The notes under the pieces: generated by a model
Told to the model about the DNA's origin: nothing
Database searches by the model: none
The model's input: the letters and a program-made list of their open reading frames with translations, nothing else
Assembly: GCA_903848955.1 (NCBI GenBank)
Contig: CAINHS010000042.1
Coordinates: 1 to 34,967, forward strand
Length of the DNA: 34,967 nucleotides
Source: an uncultured beta proteobacterium
GTDB lineage: Bacteria; Pseudomonadota; Gammaproteobacteria; Burkholderiales; Rhodocyclaceae
Reading direction: 5' to 3'
In this document: positions 1 through 19,016 of the stretch, piece by piece
Numbering within the stretch: the first letter of the stretch is position 1
Layout: the number at the start of each line of letters is the position of its first letter
Position numbers and translations under genes: made by a program

Positions 1-509
1 CGACATTCTTCGCCTACTTCCTGATCCGCTTCGACCAGGGGCACGGCTGGGGCTACCGCTATTTCCACTCCGCCTGGGGGGTGCTGCCGGTACTGGCAGC
101 GGCGGGGGCGCTGAAACTCGCGGCGGTTCCCAGCGAGGGCGTGCGATGGACCCGGATGCTGGTAGCGACCGCGCTGCTCAGCCTGCTTGCGGCCAATGGC
201 CTGCGCTTCCTCCAGATGGGCAGTTTCATGGCCGATCACCTGGCGCAGATGCCGCCCGCAACGCCTGCGCAAAGCAGCATCGTGATGCATAACGGCCGAG
301 GCTATTACGCCTACGACCTGATCCAGAACGATCCCTGGCTGCGCGGCAATTCCATCACCTTGCTGGTTCAGAGCGACGAGGAAAAGACGAGACTGCTGAA
401 CCGCTTCCGGGATCAACTGCCTGCTCATCCCGAACCGCTGAAAAACCGCTTCGGGACTAGCTTCGGCAGCGATTCGGCGGCGCCGGCACGGCAGGGACCG
501 GGTCGATAA
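1..509 (+). CDS. Integral membrane protein, putative glycosyltransferase-like, C-terminal part (5' end outside window)
   Basis: The reading frame is open from base 3 and stops with TAA at 507-509, so only about the last 168 residues are present. The visible start begins with hydrophobic membrane segments around an aromatic, glycine-rich patch (GHGWGYRYFHSAWG). A further transmembrane stretch follows, then a soluble tail of about 90 residues (containing NGRGYYAYDLIQND) that ends in a low-complexity Ala/Pro/Arg region. The G-x-GWGYRYxH patch is familiar from polytopic proteins annotated as mannosyltransferase-like or glycosyltransferase 39-like; that is recognition by memory only. A GTG at 81 could be read as a start, but the frame continues upstream with membrane-type sequence, so 81 is probably internal. 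No functional link to the following sulfur genes is evident. Confidence 0.6.
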   Translation, partial: TFFAYFLIRFDQGHGWGYRYFHSAWGVLPVLAAAGALKLAAVPSEGVRWTRMLVATALLSLLAANGLRFLQMGSFMADHLAQMPPATPAQSSIVMHNGRGYYAYDLIQNDPWLRGNSITLLVQSDEEKTRLLNRFRDQLPAHPEPLKNRFGTSFGSDSAAPARQGPGR

Positions 510-517
510 ACAATCCC

Positions 518-546
518 CTTATCCCCAAATAGAAATAATCGCCTTG
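518..546 (+). promoter_or_regulatory. Candidate activator/repressor site upstream of sat, shared with soeA
   Basis: This 29-base element matches 25 of 29 positions of the element at 14099-14127 upstream of soeA. It holds the half-site TTATCC at 519-524 and a degenerate second one, TAATCG, at 536-541, 17 bases apart. It ends 66 bases before the sat ATG. A weak sigma-70-like pair lies downstream (TTGCTA at 563-568, AATAAC at 586-591, spacing 17), which would put the element just upstream of the -35 box, as for an activator. The match is seen directly; the regulatory role is inferred. Confidence 0.5.
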
Positions 547-612
547 GCGCGATGAGGGGAAATTGCTAGCCTTCGCACTTCGAAAAATAACCAGAATAAT
601 TGGAGGTTCGGC

Positions 613-1827
613 ATGGCTTTGGTCAATCCGCACGGCGGCGGCAGTTTGCGACCCTTGTTGCTGGAGGGGCCGGCCCTGCAGGCCGAGCTGGCGCGAGCCA
701 AGTCCCTGCCGAGAGTCACGGTCAGTTCCCGCGAAAAAGGCGACATCATCATGCTCGGCATCGGCGGTTTTACGCCGCTAGAGGGCTTCATGACCCATAC
801 CGACTGGCAGGGCGTCTGCGACGGCATGAAGACCGCCTCCGGCCTGTTCTGGCCGATTCCGATCACGCTGTCCGCCGACAAGGCGACCGCCGACGGCTTG
901 AAGACCGGCGGCGAGATCGCCCTGGTCGACCCCGACGACAATTCGATTCTCGCCACCATGCAGGTGACCGAGAAGTATGCGATCGACAAGGCTCATGAGT
1001 GCGCCACCGTATTCAAGACCACCGACCTCGAGCATCCCGGCGTCAAGATGGTCATGGAGCAGGGCGACATCAATCTGGCCGGCCCGATCAAGGTGCTGTC
1101 GCAAGGCGATTTTCCGGAAAAGTACGGCGATCTGTTTCTCTCGCCGAAGGAAACCCGCGCCAGGTTCGAGGCCATGGGCTGGACCAGGGTCGCTGCCTTC
1201 CAGACGCGCAACCCGATGCACCGTTCGCACGAATACCTGGCCAAGATCGCCATCGAGACCTGCGACGGGGTGCTGATCCACTCGCTGCTCGGCAACCTGA
1301 AGCCGGGCGACATCCCCGCCGAGGTGCGCTCCGAAGCGATCGCCACGCTGGCCGAGCACTATTTCGTCAAGAACACCGTGCTGCAGGCGGGTTATCCGCT
1401 CGACATGCGCTATGCCGGTCCGCGCGAGGCGCTGCTGCATGCGCTGTTCCGCCAGAACTACGGCTGTTCTGATCTGATCGTCGGTCGCGACCATGCCGGC
1501 GTCGGCAGCTACTACGGCCCCTTCGATGCCCATCACATCTTTGACGAGATTCCCAAGGGTTCGCTCGAGACCCAGCCGCTGAAAATCGACTGGACCTTCT
1601 GGTGCTACAAGTGCGGCGGCATGGCTTCGGCGCGTACCTGCCCGCACGGCGAGGCTGACCGCCTGATGCTGTCCGGCACCAAACTGCGCAAGATGCTGTC
1701 CGAAGGCGGCGAAGTGCCCGCCGAGTTTTCGCGGGCGGAGGTGCTCGAAGTGCTGCGCGCCTACTACGCCAGTCTGGCTGAAGATGAGAAGGTCGAGGTC
1801 AAGTTGTCAGGACATTCGGCCCGCTGA
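613..1827 (+). CDS. sat: Sulfate adenylyltransferase (ATP sulfurylase), dissimilatory type
   Basis: The 404-residue homo-oligomeric type of ATP sulfurylase. In a sulfur oxidiser it runs in the direction APS plus pyrophosphate to sulfate plus ATP, giving substrate-level phosphorylation in the cytoplasm. The nucleotide-binding signature [11 protein letters not shown] starts at residue 197, and [17 protein letters not shown] starts near residue 291. A Cys cluster (C331, C334, C343, then PHGE) follows, as in dissimilatory enzymes that bind a metal there. The ATG at 613 is preceded by GGAGG at 602-606 with a 6-base spacer. It is the first gene of sat-aprB-aprA, and aprB starts 73 bases further on. 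Assimilatory CysDN is a different family, so sat beside aprBA points to energy metabolism. The family and the operon are clear. Confidence 0.97.
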
Positions 1828-1900
1828 AAGATCAGAGTCCCCCGGCTTTTCCATGTGTTTTTTTTGATGATCAACACCGCAACCAAGGAGTAGAAACCAA

Positions 1901-2374
1901 ATGCCAACCTTTGTTCGTACCGAGAAGTGCGACGGCTGCAAGGGGCAGGACAAGACCGCCTGCATGTACATCTGCCCGCACAACCTGATGAAGCTTGACA
2001 AGGACGGTTCCGAAACCGGCCATGCCATGAAAGCCTTCAACCAGGAACCGGAGCAGTGCTGGGAGTGCTACTCCTGCGTCAAGATTTGTCCGCAGGGCGC
2101 CATCGAATGCCGCCACTATGCCGACATCGTGCCGCTGGGCGGTTCGGTGCAGCCTCTGCGCGGTTCCGATTCCATCATGTGGACCATCAAGTTCCGCAAC
2201 GGCACCCTGAAGCGCTTCAAGTTCCCGATCCGCACCACGGCGGAGGGTTCGATCGATCCGTTCGGCGGCAAGCCCATGCCGAAAATGGCCGATCTCACTG
2301 CGCCCGGCGTTTTCACCCAGTCCGTGATGAACGGCTATCGCGCCGGCAACCCCGCCGAACTGATTCGCAAATAA
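1901..2374 (+). CDS. aprB: Adenylylsulfate (APS) reductase, beta subunit
   Basis: Iron-sulfur subunit (157 residues, normal length) of the cytoplasmic AprBA heterodimer, which interconverts sulfite plus AMP and APS. Two ferredoxin-type [4Fe-4S] binding sets are visible: C10, C13, C21, C25 and C53, C56, C59, C63. The second is followed by the usual PQGAIECR segment. The C-terminal half has no cysteines and is the extension that wraps around AprA in known structures. The ATG at 1901 follows AAGGAG with about 10 bases between them. Only 22 bases separate its stop from aprA, so translation of the two subunits is probably coupled. It passes electrons from the AprA flavin to an external partner, here most likely the QmoAB-HdrBC proteins encoded at 6252-11468. 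Confidence 0.97.
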   Translation: MPTFVRTEKCDGCKGQDKTACMYICPHNLMKLDKDGSETGHAMKAFNQEPEQCWECYSCVKICPQGAIECRHYADIVPLGGSVQPLRGSDSIMWTIKFRNGTLKRFKFPIRTTAEGSIDPFGGKPMPKMADLTAPGVFTQSVMNGYRAGNPAELIRK

Positions 2375-2396
2375 TCGACCAATCGAGGAACCAAAA

Positions 2397-4424
2397 ATGG
2401 CTGGAACATTTGAAGCACCGGAAGTCGTCCACGAAGAACTGGACATTCTGCTGATCGGCGGCGGCATGGCCTGTTGTGGCACCGCTTACGAAATGATGCG
2501 CTGGGCCGAAGCCGTCAAGGCCGAGTCCGGCAAGGATCTGAAGATCAAGCTGGTAGACAAGGCCGCGCTGGACCGCTCCGGCGCCGTGGCACAGGGCCTG
2601 TCGGCGATCAACACCTATATCGGTCCGGATCTCGACCCGGCCGACTATGCGCGCATGGTTTCCAACGACCTGATGGGCATCACCCGTGACGACCTGACCT
2701 ATGACCTGGGCCGCGTTGTTGACGACTCGGTGCACCTGTTCGAAGAGTGGGGCCTGCCGATCTGGAAGACCGATGCCGATGGCGTCCGTCACGACGGCGC
2801 CGAGGCGCAGAAGGAAGGCCTGGCGGCCCTGAAGGACGGCGGCAAGCCGGTGCGCTCGGGCAAGTGGCAGATCATGATCAACGGCGAGTCCTACAAGTGG
2901 ATCGTCGCCGAAGCGGCGAAGAAGGCCCTCGGCCTGAGCCGCATCGAGGAGCGCGTGTTCATCGTTCATCTGATCAACGACAAGAACGATCCCAGCCGCA
3001 TCGCCGGCGCCGCCGGTTTCTCGGTGCGCGAGAACAAGATCTACATCTACAAGGCCAAGGCCGTCATGCTGGCGGCCGGCGGTTGCGTCAACCTGTTCCG
3101 TCCGCGTTCGGTGGGCGAAGGTTCGGGCCGTGCCTGGTACCCGGTGTGGAATGCCGGTTCGACCTATGCCATGGCCGCCGAAGCCGGCGCCGAGATGACC
3201 ATGATGGAAAACCGCTTCGTACCCGCCCGTTTCAAGGACGGTTACGGTCCGGTGGGTGCCTGGTTCCTGCTGTTCAAGGCCAAGGCCACCAACGCCTACG
3301 GCGAAGACTACATGGTCAAGAACAAGGAAATGCTCAACGACTACCCGCCCTACGGCCAGGCTGCCGTTCCGGCGTCCTGCCTGCGCAATCACCTGATGCT
3401 GAAGGAGATGAAGGACGGCCATGGTCCGATCTACATGGACACCGTCACCGCCCTCGCCAAGTTGCGCGAGACGCTGACGCCGAAGGAAGTGAAGCACCTC
3501 GAAGCCGAGGCTTGGGAAGACTTCCTCGACATGTGTATCGGCCAGTGCGGCATCTGGGTTGGCGAGAACATCGAGCCCGAGAAGAAGATGTCCGAGCTGA
3601 TGCCGACCGAGCCCTACCTGCTCGGCTCGCACTCCGGCTGCTGCGGCATATGGGTCTCCGGCCCGACCGATCTTGGCGCGCCGACCAGCGAAGAGTATGA
3701 CGGCGTTCCGGCGCACCTGCCCAAGGGCTGGAACTGGGGCTACCGTTCGATGACCACGGTCAAGGGCCTGTTCACGGCCGGCGACGGCGTCGGCGCATCC
3801 GGCCACAAGTTCTCGTCCGGTTCGCACGCCGAAGGCCGCCTGGCTGCCAAGGCGATGATCAAGTACTGCCTCGACAATGCCGACTTCAAGCTCGAGTTCG
3901 ACGAGACCGACGCACAGATCGCGGAAACCATCTGGAAGCCGGTGCGCACCTTCCTCGCGCACAAGGACTACACCACCGCCATCGACGTCAACCCGCACTA
4001 CATCACGCCCAAGATGCTGCAGATGCGCTTGCAGAAAATCATGGACGAGTACGTCGCCGGTTGCAGCACCTACTACAACACCAACGACAAGATGCTGGCG
4101 GTTGCCGAAGAGAAGCTCGAACTGCTCAAGGAAGACTCGCAGAAGTTGCGCGCCAAGGATCTGCACGAACTGCTGCGGGCGTGGGAAAACTACCACCGCA
4201 TCCTGACTGCCGAAGCGCACATGAAGCACATCCAGTTCCGCGAAGAGAGTCGTTACCCCGGCTTCTACTATCGCACCGACAAGAACTTCGTCGATGAAGA
4301 GAACTGGCATTGCTTCGTGAACTCGGTCTACGACAAGCACTCCAAGAAGTGGACCTGCTTCAAGCGCAAGCACGTCGATCTGGTCGACAAGTCAAAGCTG
4401 TTCAAGGCCGCGGCCCCGCACTAA
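2397..4424 (+). CDS. aprA: Adenylylsulfate (APS) reductase, alpha subunit
   Basis: The FAD-containing catalytic subunit (675 residues) of the fumarate-reductase/succinate-dehydrogenase flavoprotein superfamily. In sulfur oxidisers it converts sulfite and AMP to APS. The dinucleotide-binding motif DILLIGGGMACCGTAYE starts at residue 16. The signature GSHSGCCGIWVSGP starts at residue 410 and includes the histidine known to lie in the active-site region of AprA. GDGVGASGHKFSSGSHAEGR, the second FAD contact region, lies further on. The Lys-rich C-terminus (CFKRKHVDLVDKSKLFK) is typical. It is the last gene of sat-aprBA, and an intrinsic terminator follows 23 bases after the stop. No aprM (the membrane partner gene of some sulfur oxidisers) follows; the Qmo-type genes nearby suggest that electron transfer system instead. 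Confidence 0.98.
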   Translation: MAGTFEAPEVVHEELDILLIGGGMACCGTAYEMMRWAEAVKAESGKDLKIKLVDKAALDRSGAVAQGLSAINTYIGPDLDPADYARMVSNDLMGITRDDLTYDLGRVVDDSVHLFEEWGLPIWKTDADGVRHDGAEAQKEGLAALKDGGKPVRSGKWQIMINGESYKWIVAEAAKKALGLSRIEERVFIVHLINDKNDPSRIAGAAGFSVRENKIYIYKAKAVMLAAGGCVNLFRPRSVGEGSGRAWYPVWNAGSTYAMAAEAGAEMTMMENRFVPARFKDGYGPVGAWFLLFKAKATNAYGEDYMVKNKEMLNDYPPYGQAAVPASCLRNHLMLKEMKDGHGPIYMDTVTALAKLRETLTPKEVKHLEAEAWEDFLDMCIGQCGIWVGENIEPEKKMSELMPTEPYLLGSHSGCCGIWVSGPTDLGAPTSEEYDGVPAHLPKGWNWGYRSMTTVKGLFTAGDGVGASGHKFSSGSHAEGRLAAKAMIKYCLDNADFKLEFDETDAQIAETIWKPVRTFLAHKDYTTAIDVNPHYITPKMLQMRLQKIMDEYVAGCSTYYNTNDKMLAVAEEKLELLKEDSQKLRAKDLHELLRAWENYHRILTAEAHMKHIQFREESRYPGFYYRTDKNFVDEENWHCFVNSVYDKHSKKWTCFKRKHVDLVDKSKLFKAAAPH

Positions 4425-13624: not shown

Positions 13625-14029
13625 TCATATCACCAGCGGGCCGTGGTATTCCTCGCCGTTCCCTGGTGCGCCAGCGCCGGCGGCTTCCGGCAGGGCCGCC
13701 GCACGCGTGGCATGGTGGTCGGCCTGGACCTGCAGCAGGGTGGTCAGGCAATCGCCCAGATTGTCATAGACGTCGCGCCCGGTGCCGAACTGCTCATTGG
13801 CCGAGTAGAAAAACTGGCAGCGATAAGCCTGGCCGGCCACTTTGGAGACGATGAACTCGGCGCCCAGTTCGTTCCAGTAAAGCGCCGGGCAGGTGCTCAG
13901 CGTCGCGCTGGCCGGATCGAGTTGCAGTTCGACGTCGGCCGCCTGTAAAGAAACCAGGTGGCCGTAACGCTCGAGCAGAATCCCGTTGGCAAGCTGCCAT
14001 TCGGTATCGGTGAAGTCAGGGATGTTCAT
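13625..14029 (-). CDS. Hypothetical protein
   Basis: A 134-residue acidic soluble protein that I do not recognise. The first 85 or so residues look folded (IPDFTDTEWQLANGILLERYG, later LYWNELGAEFIVSKVAGQAY, RCQFFYSANEQFGTGRDVYD). It has no signal peptide, membrane segment or metal motif. The last 25 residues are Ala/Gly-rich. ATG at 14029 or TTG at 14041 could start it; neither has a clear ribosome site. It is divergent from soeA, whose promoter region starts just upstream, and followed after 27 bases by the phosphoesterase gene. Real coding is suggested by composition and spacing; the function is unknown. Confidence 0.6.
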   Translation of the reverse strand: MNIPDFTDTEWQLANGILLERYGHLVSLQAADVELQLDPASATLSTCPALYWNELGAEFIVSKVAGQAYRCQFFYSANEQFGTGRDVYDNLGDCLTTLLQVQADHHATRAAALPEAAGAGAPGNGEEYHGPLVI

Positions 14030-14098
14030 CGCTATTCGCAATCGAGCAGAGGGACCGGCACTCTACAGCGGCCGGCGCAATTCCGGCAATCATTGTTG

Positions 14099-14127
14099 CT
14101 TATCCAAAAATAGAAATTATCCCCTTG
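14099..14127 (+). promoter_or_regulatory. Candidate regulatory site upstream of soeA, shared with sat
   Basis: The better-conserved copy of the 29-base element at 518-546. Exact direct repeats TTATCC at 14100-14105 and 14117-14122 are separated by 11 bases (17-base period, so on nearly the same DNA face for a dimeric or tandem regulator). A sigma-70-like pair follows (TTGTCG at 14142-14147, TCTAAA at 14165-14170, spacing 17). The element ends 75 bases before the soeA ATG. The regulatory role is inferred. Confidence 0.55.
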
Positions 14128-14202
14128 TACGCAGGCCGCGCTTGTCGTCAGAATGACGGGACTTTCTAAAGTACCGGCTCGCGCCGGTTGCCAGCCCCCT
14201 TC

Positions 14203-17082
14203 ATGCCAGCCGCCAACGATCCAATTCCATCGGTTCAGGAAGTCAAGAACACGACCTGCTACATGTGCGCCTGCCGTTGCGGCATCCGGGTGCATCTGCG
14301 CGACGGCGTGGTGCGCTACATCGACGGCAATCCTGATCATCCGCTCAACAAGGGCGTGATTTGCGCCAAGGGCTCGTCCGGCATCATGAAGCAGTATTCG
14401 CCGGCGCGCCTGCTGAAGCCGCTGAAACGCAAGGCCGGAGCGGAGCGCGGTGCCGGCGAATTCGAAGAGATTACATGGGACGAGGCCTTCGCCACGCTGG
14501 CCGAGCGCCTCGGGAAGATTCGCGCCACCGACCCGAAGAAGTTTGCCCTGTTCACCGGTCGCGACCAGATGCAGGCTTTGACCGGCATGTTCGCGCGGCA
14601 GTTCGGCACGCCCAACTATGCGGCGCACGGCGGCTTCTGTTCGGTCAACATGGCGGCCGGCATGATCTACACCATCGGCGGCTCCTTCTGGGAGTTCGGC
14701 GGACCGGACCTGGAGCGCGCCAAGCTGTTTGTCATGATCGGGACCGCCGAAGATCATCACTCGAATCCGCTGAAAATAGCGCTGTCCAAGTTCAAGCGCG
14801 ATGGCGGCCGCTTCATCTCGATCAACCCGGTGCGCACCGGCTATTCGGCGATTGCCGACGAATGGGTGCCGATCCGCCCCGCTACCGATGGCGCCCTGCT
14901 GCTGGCAATCATCCACGAGATCATCGCCACCGGCTTGTACGACCGCGACTTCCTGGTCCAGTACAGCAATGCCGGGCAATTGATCAACGTCAGCGACACC
15001 AGCGACGAGTCGGGATTCTTCGTCCGCACCGAAGTGCCGACCGAAGAGGCCTGCTACGAGCCGCAGGACAAGCTCTGGTGGGACCGCAACAGCGACCGCG
15101 CGGTAGTGACGCACACGCCCGGGGCCGACCCCTATCTGCTCGGCGAATTCAAACTGGCGGACGGTACGCCGGTGAAGCCGGCCTTCCAGTTGCTGCAGGA
15201 GCGCGTCAGGGACTACACGCCGGAATGGGCGGCCCAGATCACCGGCATTCCCGCCGATATCATCCGCCGCCTGGCGCACGAGATGGGTGTCACGGCGCGC
15301 GACCAGAAGATCGAATTGCCGATTGCCTGGACCGATTCCTGGGGCAACGAGCACGACACGGTGACCGGCAACCCGGTGGCCTTCCACGCCATGCGCGGGC
15401 TTGCGGCGCACAGCAACGGCTTCCAGACGATACGCGCGCTGGCGATCCTGATGTCGCTGCTGGGCACCATCGACCGTCCCGGCGGCTTCCGCCACAAGGC
15501 GCCTTTCCCGCGGCCGATCCCGCCCTGCGCCCGCACCCCCAACGATTCGCGTGCGGTGCAGCCCAACCATCCGCTCGACGGCATGGTGCTGGGCTGGCCG
15601 TCTGATCCGGACGATCTGTTTGTCAATGACGACGGCAGCCCGGTGCGCCTCGACAAGGCTTTTTCCTGGGAGTATCCGCTGTCGGTGCACGGCCTGATGC
15701 ACAACGCCATCACCAATGCCTGGCGCGGCGACCCGTATCGCATCGACACGCTGTTGATCTTCATGGCCAACATGTCGTGGAACTCGACCATGAACACCGC
15801 CGAAGTGCGGCAGATGCTCAACGACAAGGACGAGAGCGGCGGATTCAAGATCCCCTTCCTCGTCGTCTGCGATGCCTTCCAGTCGGAGATGACGGCCTTT
15901 GCCGACCTGATCCTGCCGGATACGACCTATCTCGAACGGCATGACGTGATGTCCATGCTCGACCGGCCGATTTCCGAGTTCGACGGCCCGGTAGATTCCG
16001 TGCGCATCCCCGTGGTGCCGGTCTCGGGCGACTGCAAGCCTTTCCAGGAAGTGCTGATAGAACTCGGTACGCGCCTGAAGTTGCCGGCCTTCGTCACGCC
16101 GGCCGGCGAGCGCAAGTTCCGCGATTACCCCGATTTCATCGTCAATTGGGAAACCGAGCCGGGATCCGGCATCGGCTTTCTTTCCGGCTGGCGCGGCAAG
16201 GGCGGTGAGAAATTCCTGCGCGGCGAGCCGAACCCGAATCAGTGGGAGATGTACGCCAGGAACAATTGCGTCTTCCACTACGAACTGCCCAAGTCCTACC
16301 AGTACATGCGCAACTGGAACAAGGGCTATCTCGAATGGTCGCAGCGCAACCGCATCACGCGTTACGCCGAGCCGATCCTGATTCACCTGTATTCCGAAGT
16401 GCTGCAGCGCTTCCGCAGTGCCGCCCAGGGCAAGGGGCTGACGCGCAAGCCGCCGCAGCATCTGAGGAAGCGCATCGATACCTATTTCGATCCCTTGCCT
16501 TTCTACTACGACTCGCTCGAAGCGCAGGTCACCGACAAGCACAAGTACCCGCTGGCGGCGGTGACGCAACGGCCGATGGCGATGTACCACTCCTGGGATT
16601 CGCAGAACGCCTGGCTGCGGCAGATCCACACTCACAACTACCTCTACGTCAATACCCGCACCGCGTTGCAGCAGGGCATCGCCGACGGCGACTGGATCTG
16701 GGTCGAATCGCAATGGGGCAAGGTGCGCTGCATGGCGCGCCACTCGGAAGCGGTGGAGCCCGGCACGGTATGGACCTGGAACGCCATCGGCAAGGCGGCG
16801 GGAGCGTGGAACCTGACGCCGGACGCCAACGAATCGCAGAAGGGCTTCCTGCTCAACCACCTGATATCGGAGGAACTGCCCGGTGCCGGAGCGAGCGGCA
16901 GGGTATCCAACTCCGACCCGATCACCGGCCAGGCGGCGTGGTATGACGTGCGGGTGCGGATATACAAGGCCGAAGCCGGCGAGGCGGAGCAGACCTCGCC
17001 GCAGTTCGAGGCCTTGAAGCCCTATCCGGGCATGAAGACGCGCGGCAGTGTTCTCGCCTACGTCGGGAAGCTGTTCAAATGA
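14203..17082 (+). CDS. soeA: Sulfite:quinone oxidoreductase, molybdopterin subunit SoeA
   Basis: A 959-residue molybdoprotein of the DMSO-reductase/complex iron-sulfur molybdoenzyme family, oxidising sulfite directly to sulfate at the cytoplasmic face of the membrane. The N-terminal [4Fe-4S] site is C19, C22, C26 and C54 (CYMCACRCG, then VICAKGSSG). C146 in GGFCSVNMAAG is the likely molybdenum ligand. Molybdopterin contacts follow, and the C-terminal molydopterin-binding domain includes HTHNYLYVNTRTA. No twin-arginine signal is present, which argues for a cytoplasmic SoeA and against periplasmic polysulfide/thiosulfate reductases PsrA/PhsA. ATG at 14203 was preferred over TTG at 14188; neither has a strong ribosome site. 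soeB and soeC follow. Order, lengths (959, 243, 325) and neighbouring sulfur genes fit SoeABC. Confidence 0.88.
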   Translation: MPAANDPIPSVQEVKNTTCYMCACRCGIRVHLRDGVVRYIDGNPDHPLNKGVICAKGSSGIMKQYSPARLLKPLKRKAGAERGAGEFEEITWDEAFATLAERLGKIRATDPKKFALFTGRDQMQALTGMFARQFGTPNYAAHGGFCSVNMAAGMIYTIGGSFWEFGGPDLERAKLFVMIGTAEDHHSNPLKIALSKFKRDGGRFISINPVRTGYSAIADEWVPIRPATDGALLLAIIHEIIATGLYDRDFLVQYSNAGQLINVSDTSDESGFFVRTEVPTEEACYEPQDKLWWDRNSDRAVVTHTPGADPYLLGEFKLADGTPVKPAFQLLQERVRDYTPEWAAQITGIPADIIRRLAHEMGVTARDQKIELPIAWTDSWGNEHDTVTGNPVAFHAMRGLAAHSNGFQTIRALAILMSLLGTIDRPGGFRHKAPFPRPIPPCARTPNDSRAVQPNHPLDGMVLGWPSDPDDLFVNDDGSPVRLDKAFSWEYPLSVHGLMHNAITNAWRGDPYRIDTLLIFMANMSWNSTMNTAEVRQMLNDKDESGGFKIPFLVVCDAFQSEMTAFADLILPDTTYLERHDVMSMLDRPISEFDGPVDSVRIPVVPVSGDCKPFQEVLIELGTRLKLPAFVTPAGERKFRDYPDFIVNWETEPGSGIGFLSGWRGKGGEKFLRGEPNPNQWEMYARNNCVFHYELPKSYQYMRNWNKGYLEWSQRNRITRYAEPILIHLYSEVLQRFRSAAQGKGLTRKPPQHLRKRIDTYFDPLPFYYDSLEAQVTDKHKYPLAAVTQRPMAMYHSWDSQNAWLRQIHTHNYLYVNTRTALQQGIADGDWIWVESQWGKVRCMARHSEAVEPGTVWTWNAIGKAAGAWNLTPDANESQKGFLLNHLISEELPGAGASGRVSNSDPITGQAAWYDVRVRIYKAEAGEAEQTSPQFEALKPYPGMKTRGSVLAYVGKLFK

Positions 17083-17097
17083 CCCCGAAAAGCATTA

Positions 17098-17170
17098 GCC
17101 ACAGAGGACACAGAGGGCACAGAGAAAGGCAAGACGGGCTTTCCTCTGTGATCTCTGTGTCCTCTGTGGC
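17098..17170. repeat. Long imperfect palindrome between soeA and soeB
   Basis: Arms 17098-17130 and 17138-17170 are inverted copies, 29 of 33 positions matching, starting with GCCACAGAGGACACAGAG; the loop is 7 bases. The CCACAGAGGACACAGAG type of intergenic palindrome is seen in many unrelated bacterial genomes. It starts 15 bases after the soeA stop and ends 18 bases before the soeB start, so the polycistronic RNA would fold a very strong hairpin here. Confidence 0.85.
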
Positions 17171-17188
17171 AAAAGAGGTTTTGAGTTC

Positions 17189-17920
17189 ATGACGCAACTC
17201 GCATTGGTCATCGACCTCAACGTCTGCGTCGGCTGCCATGCCTGCGTGACCTCCTGCAAGGAGTGGAATACTTCGGGCAGCGCCGGGCCGATGGGCGATC
17301 AGAACCCTTATGGCGCCGATCCGACGGGAACCTTCTTCAACCGGGTGCAGACTTTCGAGGTGGGCGAATTTCCCAATACGGAAACGGTGCATTTCCCCAA
17401 GTCCTGCCTGCATTGCGAGGATCCTCCCTGCGTCCCGGTGTGCCCGACAGGGGCTTCCTACAAGCGCAAGGAGGATGGTATCGTCCTCGTCAATTACGAC
17501 AAGTGCATCGGTTGCAAGTATTGCTCCTGGGCCTGCCCCTACGGCGCCCGCGAATTCGATGAGCAGCAGCGGGTGATGAAAAAATGCACGCTGTGCGTCG
17601 ACCGGATCTACGACACATCCATGAACGAGGGCGACCGCAAGCCGTCCTGCGTCAAGGCCTGCCCGACCTCGGCGCGGCTGTTCGGCGATATCCATGATCC
17701 CGACTCGGCGGTATCGATAGCAATCCGCGAAAGCGGCGGCTATCCGCTGATGCCTGAATGGGGTACGCACCCGGCCAATCACTACCTGCCGCGACGCAAG
17801 ACCCGCATCAGGATTCATCTGGATGAACTCGAGCGCGCCGACAACCCGCTCAAGGTCGATCGCCAGTTGCCGCGGCCGGCGATGAACGAGCCGACACTCG
17901 ACGACGTCACCACATGGTAG
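17189..17920 (+). CDS. soeB: Sulfite:quinone oxidoreductase, iron-sulfur subunit SoeB
   Basis: A 243-residue ferredoxin-like subunit carrying four [4Fe-4S] motifs: CVGCHACVTSC (C13, C16, C19, C23), CLHCEDPPCVPVCP, CIGCKYCSWACP, and CTLC paired with CVKACP. This is the DmsB/PsrB arrangement that wires the molybdenum site of SoeA to the membrane subunit. There is no signal peptide. The ATG at 17189 lies just behind the palindrome; GAGG about 11 bases upstream is a poor ribosome site, so expression may depend on how the hairpin folds or is processed. The C-terminus (LPRRKTRIRIHLDELE onwards) is typical of the family. soeC starts 118 bases downstream, after a REP-like repeat. Confidence 0.9.
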   Translation: MTQLALVIDLNVCVGCHACVTSCKEWNTSGSAGPMGDQNPYGADPTGTFFNRVQTFEVGEFPNTETVHFPKSCLHCEDPPCVPVCPTGASYKRKEDGIVLVNYDKCIGCKYCSWACPYGAREFDEQQRVMKKCTLCVDRIYDTSMNEGDRKPSCVKACPTSARLFGDIHDPDSAVSIAIRESGGYPLMPEWGTHPANHYLPRRKTRIRIHLDELERADNPLKVDRQLPRPAMNEPTLDDVTTW

Positions 17921-17932
17921 CGCCGCGCCGCC

Positions 17933-18019
17933 GGGCCGCCCCAAGGCGCGGCCAGTCATCAACCGGAGGTCGCGCCTGGCGCGACCGAACAACTGTCACC
18001 CCCTTTCCTGCAAAGGGGG
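17933..18019. repeat. REP-like intergenic repeat, copy 2 (between soeB and soeC)
   Basis: Starts with GGGCCGCCCCAAGG as in copy 1 (10070-10154), then AGTCAT, a GC-rich inverted middle (GGTCGCGCC/GGCGCGACC) and a perfect 8-bp terminal hairpin (17999-18006 with 18012-18019, CCCCCTTT / AAAGGGGG). It fills most of the soeB-soeC gap; soeC starts 20 bases later. Confidence 0.65.
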
Positions 18020-18038
18020 CCGGGGGGTAAGCCCAACC

Positions 18039-19016
18039 ATGCATCCGGCTTTTTCCGTCATCTTCCTGACCACCCTGATCGGCGCCGGCCAGGGACTGTT
18101 TCTCGCGCTGTTCACCGCGCAGTCCTACGCCGCCTTCAAGTTGCTGCCGCAACCGGATGCTCACGCCTTCTACGGTCAGGGCAGTTTGCTGGCGCTGGCA
18201 TTGCTGGCCGGCGGGCTGGCGGCTTCCTTCTTTCACCTCGGGCACCCGGAGCGGGCCTGGCGTTCTGCCGCGATGTGGCGCACCTCGTGGCTGTCGCGCG
18301 AGGTGATCGTGCTGCCGGCCTTCATGGGTGCGGTCTTTCTGTATGGCCTGGCGCACTGGCTGGACTGGCATCCGGTGCTGATGACCCTGCCCGGCGGACT
18401 GCCGGTCGATCCCACGGCGATTCTCGGCGTGGCCGGCTGGGTGCTGGCTTTCGCCCTGTTCATTTGCACGGCAATGATCTACGCCTGCCTTAAGTTCTTG
18501 AAGGAATGGCATTCACCTCTCACCGTCATCAATTACATCCTGCTCGGCGGAGCTTCAGGCTTTACTCTCGCCGCGGCCTTCGCCGCCGTTACTGCACCTG
18601 AACTGGTCGGCTTCCTCGCCGGCTGGGCGGCGATCATCACCGTGCTCGGTCTGCTCGGCCGCAGCGCCTCGCTCTATCGCAACGCGCGCTTGAAGCCGAC
18701 ATCGACGCTGCAGACCGCCATCGGCATCAAGCATCCGCGCATCGTGCAGACGACGCAGGGCTTCATGGGGGGCAGTTTCAATACGCGCGAGTTCTTTCAC
18801 GGCCGGCCGGTCGCCGTGCTGCGCGGCGTGAAGTGGTTTTTCCTGCTCGCCGTGTTCCCGCTGCCGCTGCTGTTGCTGTTGTCAGGTATGCAAGGCGCCA
18901 GCGGTCTGCTGGCCGCGGCCTTCGTGGTGCAGTACGCGGGCCTGCTGGCCGAACGCTGGTTTTTTTTCGCCCAGGCCAATCATCCGCAGAATCTGTTTTA
19001 CCAGTCCATCGCCTGA
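18039..19016 (+). CDS. soeC: Sulfite:quinone oxidoreductase, membrane anchor SoeC
   Basis: A 325-residue DmsC/NrfD-type polytopic inner-membrane protein with about eight hydrophobic helices, the quinone-reactive anchor of SoeABC. Visible features include SFFHLGHPERAWRSAAMWRTSWLSREV, here split as a helix-loop with the conserved HLGxPxRAW and SWLSRE elements, and a C-terminal AERWFFFAQANHPQNLFYQ. These are characteristic of DmsC-like anchors that bind no haem. The ATG at 18039 follows a purine-rich GGGGGGTAAG stretch that overlaps the REP-like repeat. It ends the soe operon: tusA follows 94 bases later behind its own candidate promoter, with no terminator between them, so some read-through into tusA is likely. 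Confidence 0.88.
   Translation: MHPAFSVIFLTTLIGAGQGLFLALFTAQSYAAFKLLPQPDAHAFYGQGSLLALALLAGGLAASFFHLGHPERAWRSAAMWRTSWLSREVIVLPAFMGAVFLYGLAHWLDWHPVLMTLPGGLPVDPTAILGVAGWVLAFALFICTAMIYACLKFLKEWHSPLTVINYILLGGASGFTLAAAFAAVTAPELVGFLAGWAAIITVLGLLGRSASLYRNARLKPTSTLQTAIGIKHPRIVQTTQGFMGGSFNTREFFHGRPVAVLRGVKWFFLLAVFPLPLLLLLSGMQGASGLLAAAFVVQYAGLLAERWFFFAQANHPQNLFYQSIA

Follow-up and report, generated by a model that had tools for sequence, protein, structure and literature searches.

The window, that is, the whole stretch of 34,967 nucleotides analysed here, is contig C42 of a 3.62 Mb Sulfuritalea genome and carries two operons for sulfite oxidation on its forward strand, sat-aprBA (613-4424) and soeABC (14203-19016). 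The first consists of sat (ATP sulfurylase, 613-1827; PF01747, and NCBIfam PRK04149 over its cut-off), aprB (APS reductase beta subunit, 1901-2374; PF12139) and aprA (alpha subunit, 2397-4424; TIGR02061 over its cut-off). The second consists of soeA (molybdopterin subunit of sulfite dehydrogenase, 14203-17082; PF00384, PF04879 and PF01568), which owes its name to its position with soeB (iron-sulfur subunit, 17189-17920; PF13247) and soeC (membrane anchor, 18039-19016; PF04976, DmsC). Between the operons lie a forward-strand gene for a CxxCxxCC protein and, on the reverse strand, the qmo genes, a sulfur-transport gene and a metallophosphatase gene, assigned from their domains and from earlier naming. 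Divergent from soeA, a reverse-strand gene at 13625-14041 encodes a 138-aa protein that has relatives in seven of the genomes compared and gave no Pfam or NCBIfam match; promoter-like blocks, ACTCTACAG and GGCAA, are conserved before it in the genus. A scan of the window with Rfam at the gathering threshold gave no matches.

Both operons are preceded by a copy of one 29-base element, which we propose, from its sequence, a genus-wide model and alignments, to be the activator site of a LysR-type protein. The copy upstream of sat (518-546, forward strand) reads CTTATCCCCAAATAGAAATAATCGCCTTG and the second copy, upstream of soeA (14099-14127, forward strand), reads CTTATCCAAAAATAGAAATTATCCCCTTG. 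Direct comparison bore out what a sequence-only reading of this DNA had reported: 25 of the 29 positions are identical and four differ, with 66 bases between the end of the element and the ATG of sat (613) and 75 bases between it and that of soeA (14203). A search of the whole genome with the 29-base consensus, allowing up to three mismatches, returned only these two places, and none with the reversed control. The same two copies are the only perfect occurrences of TTATCC-N11-TWATCS in this genome, where allowing one mismatch gave nine places versus four in the reversed control. When a position matrix was run over the window no third site emerged (best other score -5.4, versus 52.9 and 54.2 for the two copies), and therefore the absence of the element before qmoA and tusA, previously claimed by eye, holds.

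Across the genus, the consensus with up to three mismatches was found in 29 of 31 genomes (this one included), versus 0 of 30 genomes of other genera, while the reversed consensus at the same threshold had no match in all 61. These matches occupy 47 places, 44 of which have a readable downstream gene (21 sat, 23 soeA), the other three being at contig ends. A sequence model was then built from 19 distinct genus forms and used to score the best 150 of several hundred candidates per genome, which listed 57 places up to an E-value of 10. The best 53 of these (E ≤ 0.21, 31 genus genomes) are the 47 consensus places plus six weaker ones, before sat in G013, G003 and G015 and before soeA in G018, G008 and G030 (the soeA ones placed by coordinates); the remaining four have E-values of 0.48-0.86. 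Fifty of the 53 lie before sat or soeA and three on contigs that end too soon to decide, and among the best 150 candidates per genome none at E ≤ 0.21 lies before another gene. The pattern is not that of the dispersed repeat at random places that the earlier reading had named as the outcome against it. Counted from the genes, the element stands before every one of the 24 genus sat genes for which start and upstream sequence are available and before 26 of the 27 listed genus soeA matches with a start and more than 40 bases upstream, so the conservation in close relatives on which that reading had staked its claim is there. The sole soeA exception is a second soeA copy in G017, part of a second soeABC (6550-15872 of L421, G017:C1:210000-229000) whose soeA is 92% identical to that of the window. 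The two genus genomes without a model match, G009 and G020, are assemblies of about 600 pieces each that lack a sat match and have soeA at a contig end.

A scan of 84,980 species with the exact pattern yielded 52 stretches, of which 43 are contigs of the same genus genomes. Eight fall in unrelated bacteria, and we take these, having viewed about 200 bases of each, to be chance matches. Contig L081 (JAUXPG010000106.1), from a metagenome-assembled genome titled Gemmobacter, carries a Sulfuritalea-type sat together with the element and is therefore probably mis-binned.

To define the anatomy of the element, 21 sat upstreams and 23 soeA upstreams from the genus were aligned. Invariant in the 19 aligned forms are CTTAT and AAATAGAAAT, with variable bases between them; a T at position 2 of the element and an A at position 14 are among the invariant bases in all 19, giving the T-N11-A within an imperfect dyad that is characteristic of LysR-type binding sites. 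Judged by these alignments, the conserved core is CTTAT-N6-ATAGAAAT and not a pair of tandem TTATCC half-sites. In the window the sat copy of this core, CTTAT-N6-ATAGA, occupies 518-533 on the forward strand (T-N11-A at 519/531), and in other families it takes the form of an imperfect palindrome, CTTAT-N6-ATAAA. The right part of the element differs by gene in the genus alignments, being AATCGCATTGG at sat and TTATCCCCTTGTG at soeA, and TTG closes the element in 16 of 21 sat copies and 21 of 23 soeA copies. The tandem TTATCC repeat with a 17-base period, on which the sequence-only reading had built, is thus not conserved in the genus. Its first half may be TTATCG, TTATCT, TTATTC or TTATTT, and its second half may become, for example, ACTCC, ATTCA or AAATG; because weaker members lose the second TTATCC-like part, the tandem-repeat reading is wrong.

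Outside the element, a AAACAATC block upstream of the sat copy (508-515, forward strand) is conserved in the 21 genus sat upstreams, and a GGCAATCA block upstream of the soe copy (14085-14092, forward strand) in the 23 soeA upstreams; the latter may be the -35 box of a divergent gene on the other strand. A further conserved block (TTCTAA at 14164-14169, TTCTAAT in most relatives) follows the soe element at a distance of about 37 bases, close to where transcription is predicted to start.

The closing TTG of the element can be read as the opening bases of a poor -35 box with a -10 box behind it, both boxes being predictions. At sat, TTGGCG (544-549, forward strand) is the predicted -35 box and shares its first three bases with the end of the element, while TGCTAGCCT (564-572, forward strand) is the predicted extended -10 box, its hexamer lying 49 bases from the first base of the element. 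At soeA, TTGTAC (14125-14130, forward strand), which likewise runs into the end of the element, is the predicted -35 box, and CAGAAT (14149-14154, forward strand), 50 bases from the first base of the element, is the predicted -10 box. Predicted transcription starts lie near 579 for sat and near 14161 for soeA. The earlier placement of sigma-70-like boxes 15-17 bases behind each element therefore needs correcting, since the predicted -10 boxes begin 20-21 bases behind it and the predicted -35 boxes overlap it.

Conservation of the offset supports both -10 predictions. In a scan of sat upstreams for TGnTAnnnT, with offsets counted from the C of CTTAT to the hexamer, the box lies at 48 or 49 in all 21 genus genes and in 27 of the 31 non-genus genes that have the site, and at no other offset from 20 to 90 in sat upstreams with the site; the other four non-genus genes have CACAAT, CAGAAT or GAGAAT at 49-50 by eye. 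For soeA, [CTA]A[GC]AAT occurs at an offset of 48-50 in 22 of 23 genus upstreams (20 of them at 50), and [CT]A[ACG]AAT at 47-49 in 10 of the 16 non-genus upstreams with the site, being absent from six. A composite scan for site plus -10 box at 15 loci gave five matches, all at sat or soeA; some known sites were missed because the spacing window was too narrow, and the scan is therefore given little weight. An activator in contact with RNA polymerase would be expected to hold such a spacing between site and -10 box constant.

To follow the site into other families of the order, we compared 68 non-genus sat upstreams (from 69 of the 83 sat genomes outside the genus, one being too short) and 68 non-genus soeA upstreams (from 69 drawn from 104 such genomes, one dropped as its start was not found). 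A loose regular expression, written after the sequences had been viewed, matched 31 of the sat and 16 of the soeA upstreams, counts that are not independent because several genomes come from one family; shuffled sequences gave means of 0.17 (sat) and 0.29 (soeA) with a maximum of two. The minus strand gave 16 (sat) and nine (soeA) matches, as an imperfect palindrome in the same position should. At sat, the site in many families is an inverted repeat of greater length, such as CTTATCC-N15-GGATAAG. A consensus of this repeat matched 18 places in 17 of 399 genomes, 12 of them at sat; the other six, in five genomes, are not at sat (three were viewed and no sulfur genes were seen there), and the reversed control gave one match (in G362). 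From these sequences, the site looks like a sulfite-oxidation promoter module shared with genomes outside the genus.

Gene order links the two routes as well. In five genomes of family f24 (G059, G107, G317, G375 and G426) and one of f37 (G352), sat and soeA are adjacent and transcribed in opposite directions from a common intergenic region that bears another motif, of an ATAACC/GGGG type recognised by eye and here called type B; G059:C8:173257-173561 is an example. In G391 (f10) and G432 (f38) the two genes share a strand, sat lying downstream of soeA with enough space between them for soeB and soeC, and in two f22 genomes soeB, soeC and sat stand in a row with soeA elsewhere. Since sat and soe are tied together in these several ways, joint control is supported as the purpose. 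Target specificity and conservation support the proposal of the sequence-only reading that one regulator would serve both sulfite-oxidation routes. That the element is a shared regulator site is very probable, and we read CTTAT-N6-ATAGAAAT as the proposed activation site of a LysR-type regulator.

YeiE, the enterobacterial LysR-type sulfite sensor, offers a model for such a regulator: sulfite causes it to switch on yeiH, which encodes a sulfite exporter (PMC12880088), and according to a 2025 paper its Glu145 distinguishes sulfite from sulfate (PMC12423496). Regulator candidates were listed for the LysR family only (PF00126). The genome of the window has 11 LysR genes, two of the CysB family and one YeiE-like. 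Co-occurrence was assessed in 43 chosen genomes, among them 14 of the 31 genus genomes, with type A (this element) and type B genomes hand-chosen from upstream readings and type B assigned by eye; the regular expression is matched before sat or soeA in 17 of the 18 non-genus type A genomes, G139 being assigned by eye only. A YeiE-like gene (E ≤ 1e-50) was present in 33 of the 43: in all 14 genus genomes, in 17 of the 18 non-genus genomes that have the element and in none of the eight type B genomes. Two f22 genomes (both with the gene) and one f10 genome (without it) fit neither type and were left out of the Fisher test, which gave p = 5.8e-6 with kinship ignored. As only genomes with sat or soe were counted, the co-occurrence may partly follow the species tree.

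The YeiE-like gene is unlinked to sat and soe in Sulfuritalea. When the window and 20 regions around sat or soe of other genomes were searched by tblastn with three LysR queries, the sole LysR gene to appear was a distant one in a single region (L347), and no conserved regulator gene beside sat or soe emerged from a table of 20 fetched regions read by eye, which includes antisense frames. Linkage is seen elsewhere. In both f22 genomes the YeiE-like gene and sat, itself preceded by soeB and soeC, are convergent neighbours, and aprBA-like genes (44-46% identical) flank the YeiE-like gene on its other side, yet the regular expression finds no site before sat or soeA there. In G017, a 59% identical YeiE-like paralogue lies 3.9 kb before the second soeA, the copy without the element. 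This paralogue is also the one exception among 34 YeiE-like proteins to the sequence MTQPAVTFQ in the helix that reads DNA.

A Glu aligned with Glu145 of YeiE is present in the protein of this genome, at position 147, and in all 34 YeiE-like proteins aligned; it is absent from three other LysR proteins (from G358 and G391). The closest PDB relatives of the protein from this genome include 8sbf (E 9.2e-35), the YeiE structure 8sbh (5e-30) and 7erp (1.7e-28). A CbbR-like structure, 5y2v (2e-33), scores nearly equal to the YeiE structures, and in the printed alignment both 5y2v and 7fdf have Ser at the Glu145 position. The best NCBIfam model is that of a selenium-metabolism LysR protein (NF040786, 229 bits, cut-off 250); with the YeiE model (NF040889) the protein scores 180.3 bits against a cut-off of 480 and is therefore not YeiE itself. 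In the genus, autoregulation found no support, as no site of the same type was seen before the YeiE-like gene. A TTTAT-N6-ATAAG-like sequence lies near the start of this gene in the two f22 genomes and in G365, overlapping a likely -10 box, and weaker forms occur in some other genomes.

In the mechanism that we propose, a single LysR-type activator would act on both 29-base copies and switch on AprBA-Sat, which oxidises sulfite via APS, together with SoeABC, which does so directly. Bound to CTTAT-N6-ATAGAAAT with its centre near -53 relative to the predicted start point, it would extend to the -35 box, into which the end of the site runs, and aid RNA polymerase at a weak promoter, with the distance from site to -10 box held fixed. 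The likeliest regulator would be the product of the YeiE-like LysR gene that this genome carries at C141:21114-22025, with sulfite, the substrate common to both routes, as the likeliest signal. On the sequence comparisons above, it is reasonably probable that a YeiE-like LysR protein activates both operons. Sulfite as its ligand is put forward more tentatively, as a good possibility.

CysB, the LysR regulator of sulfur assimilation, was favoured initially as the protein binding the element, in which case sulfite oxidation would be tied to cysteine supply. This genome has two CysB-family genes over the subfamily cut-off, and CysB activates from sites whose centres lie 50-60 bases before the start (PMC11329422). 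The attraction had come from an element-like sequence, CTTATGCACAAATCAGTTGATAGATCGCCTTG, 78 bases ahead of a gene that by its look encodes a sulfate-binding protein, with a CysB-family gene in the same stretch; this is a third, weaker sequence resembling the sat element in this genome (L375 15888-15919, G000:C144). The family search led us to drop CysB. CysB-family proteins over the cut-off occur in 31 of the 43 genomes searched, including all eight of type B, which have a different element, but in only eight of the 18 non-genus genomes with the element, the 10 without being G284, G186, G392, G069, G081, G064, G142, G071, G203 and G331. In addition, the sulfate-binding protein has matches (E ≤ 1e-60) in just five of 31 genus genomes, 55-59% identical apart from the copy in this genome, and by eye no such site lies between the cysB gene and its divergent neighbour. 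We regard CysB as quite improbable. Less probable still, and hardly credible, is that the element is a mere strong promoter part (an AT-rich upstream element) or a dispersed repeat without shared control. It does abut a sigma-70-like promoter and is AT-rich within a GC-rich genome, but its conservation is base-specific, its variants in other families keep a constant spacing, and 29 of the 31 genus genomes have it just once or twice (E ≤ 0.21), at two operons whose functions match.

A single regulator from outside the LysR family, such as a Crp/Fnr, ArsR, two-component or sigma-54 activator protein, is the less remote alternative, though still an unlikely one. CTTAT-N6-ATAAG has the half-site spacing of Crp-type sites, which counts in its favour; Crp sites, however, usually lie at -41 or -61, and the predicted centre of this site, at about -53, fits neither. 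In G358 the site stands ahead of sat as well as of soeA, yet a YeiE-like gene at E ≤ 1e-50 is missing; LysR proteins fetched from G358 are 25-30% identical. One LysR gene of G358, 28% identical (L418, G358:C28:33700-35800), adjoins a qmoA relative. There is also precedent in Hyphomicrobium, where sulfur oxidation is governed by the ArsR-type SoxR and sHdrR (PMC12423496). Against a non-LysR regulator stand the co-occurrence of the YeiE-like gene with the element and its linkage to sat and soe in other genomes.

The preferred regulator, a YeiE-like LysR protein, resembles several known systems without matching any of them. It shares with YeiE the LysR family, the sulfite-selecting Glu, a place for YeiE structures among its closest solved relatives and the proposed signal, sulfite (PMC12880088 and PMC12423496), but its proposed targets are oxidation enzymes of energy metabolism rather than an exporter, and its gene is not linked to them in Sulfuritalea. 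CysB and Cbl are likewise LysR activators with sites about 50-60 bases upstream of the starts of sulfur genes (PMC11329422), but theirs is an assimilation regulon, whereas the targets of the element are dissimilatory. SoxR and sHdrR provide dedicated control of sulfur oxidation genes (PMC12423496); they are sulfane-sulfur repressors of the sox and shdr genes and control steps that make sulfite, whereas the element is common to two steps that remove it and lies beside a predicted -35 box, a position that would suit an activator. CbbR and NdhR are LysR proteins too, with the near-equal PDB score of 5y2v, but 5y2v has Ser at the Glu145 position, and the genus model finds no good site outside sat and soeA among the best 150 candidates per genome.

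Regulators are known for the sulfite-making steps of sulfur oxidation, such as SoxR and sHdrR (PMC12423496), and in the open-licence literature searched we saw neither a regulator described for sat-aprBA or soeABC nor a description of this site. Taken in full, the proposal is of a tiny regulon, spread over much of the order, in which a YeiE-related, sulfite-sensing LysR protein would activate only the AprBA-Sat and SoeABC promoters, at a constant distance from site to -10 box; we hold this as a tentative picture, somewhat less likely than not. If it is true, sulfite, the toxic intermediate, would itself be the signal that opens both of its exits at once. With the site, the predicted promoter geometry, a likely signal and one candidate among 11 LysR genes now defined, it becomes directly testable how sulfur oxidisers balance the production of toxic sulfite with its removal, and why some of them keep two parallel sulfite routes.
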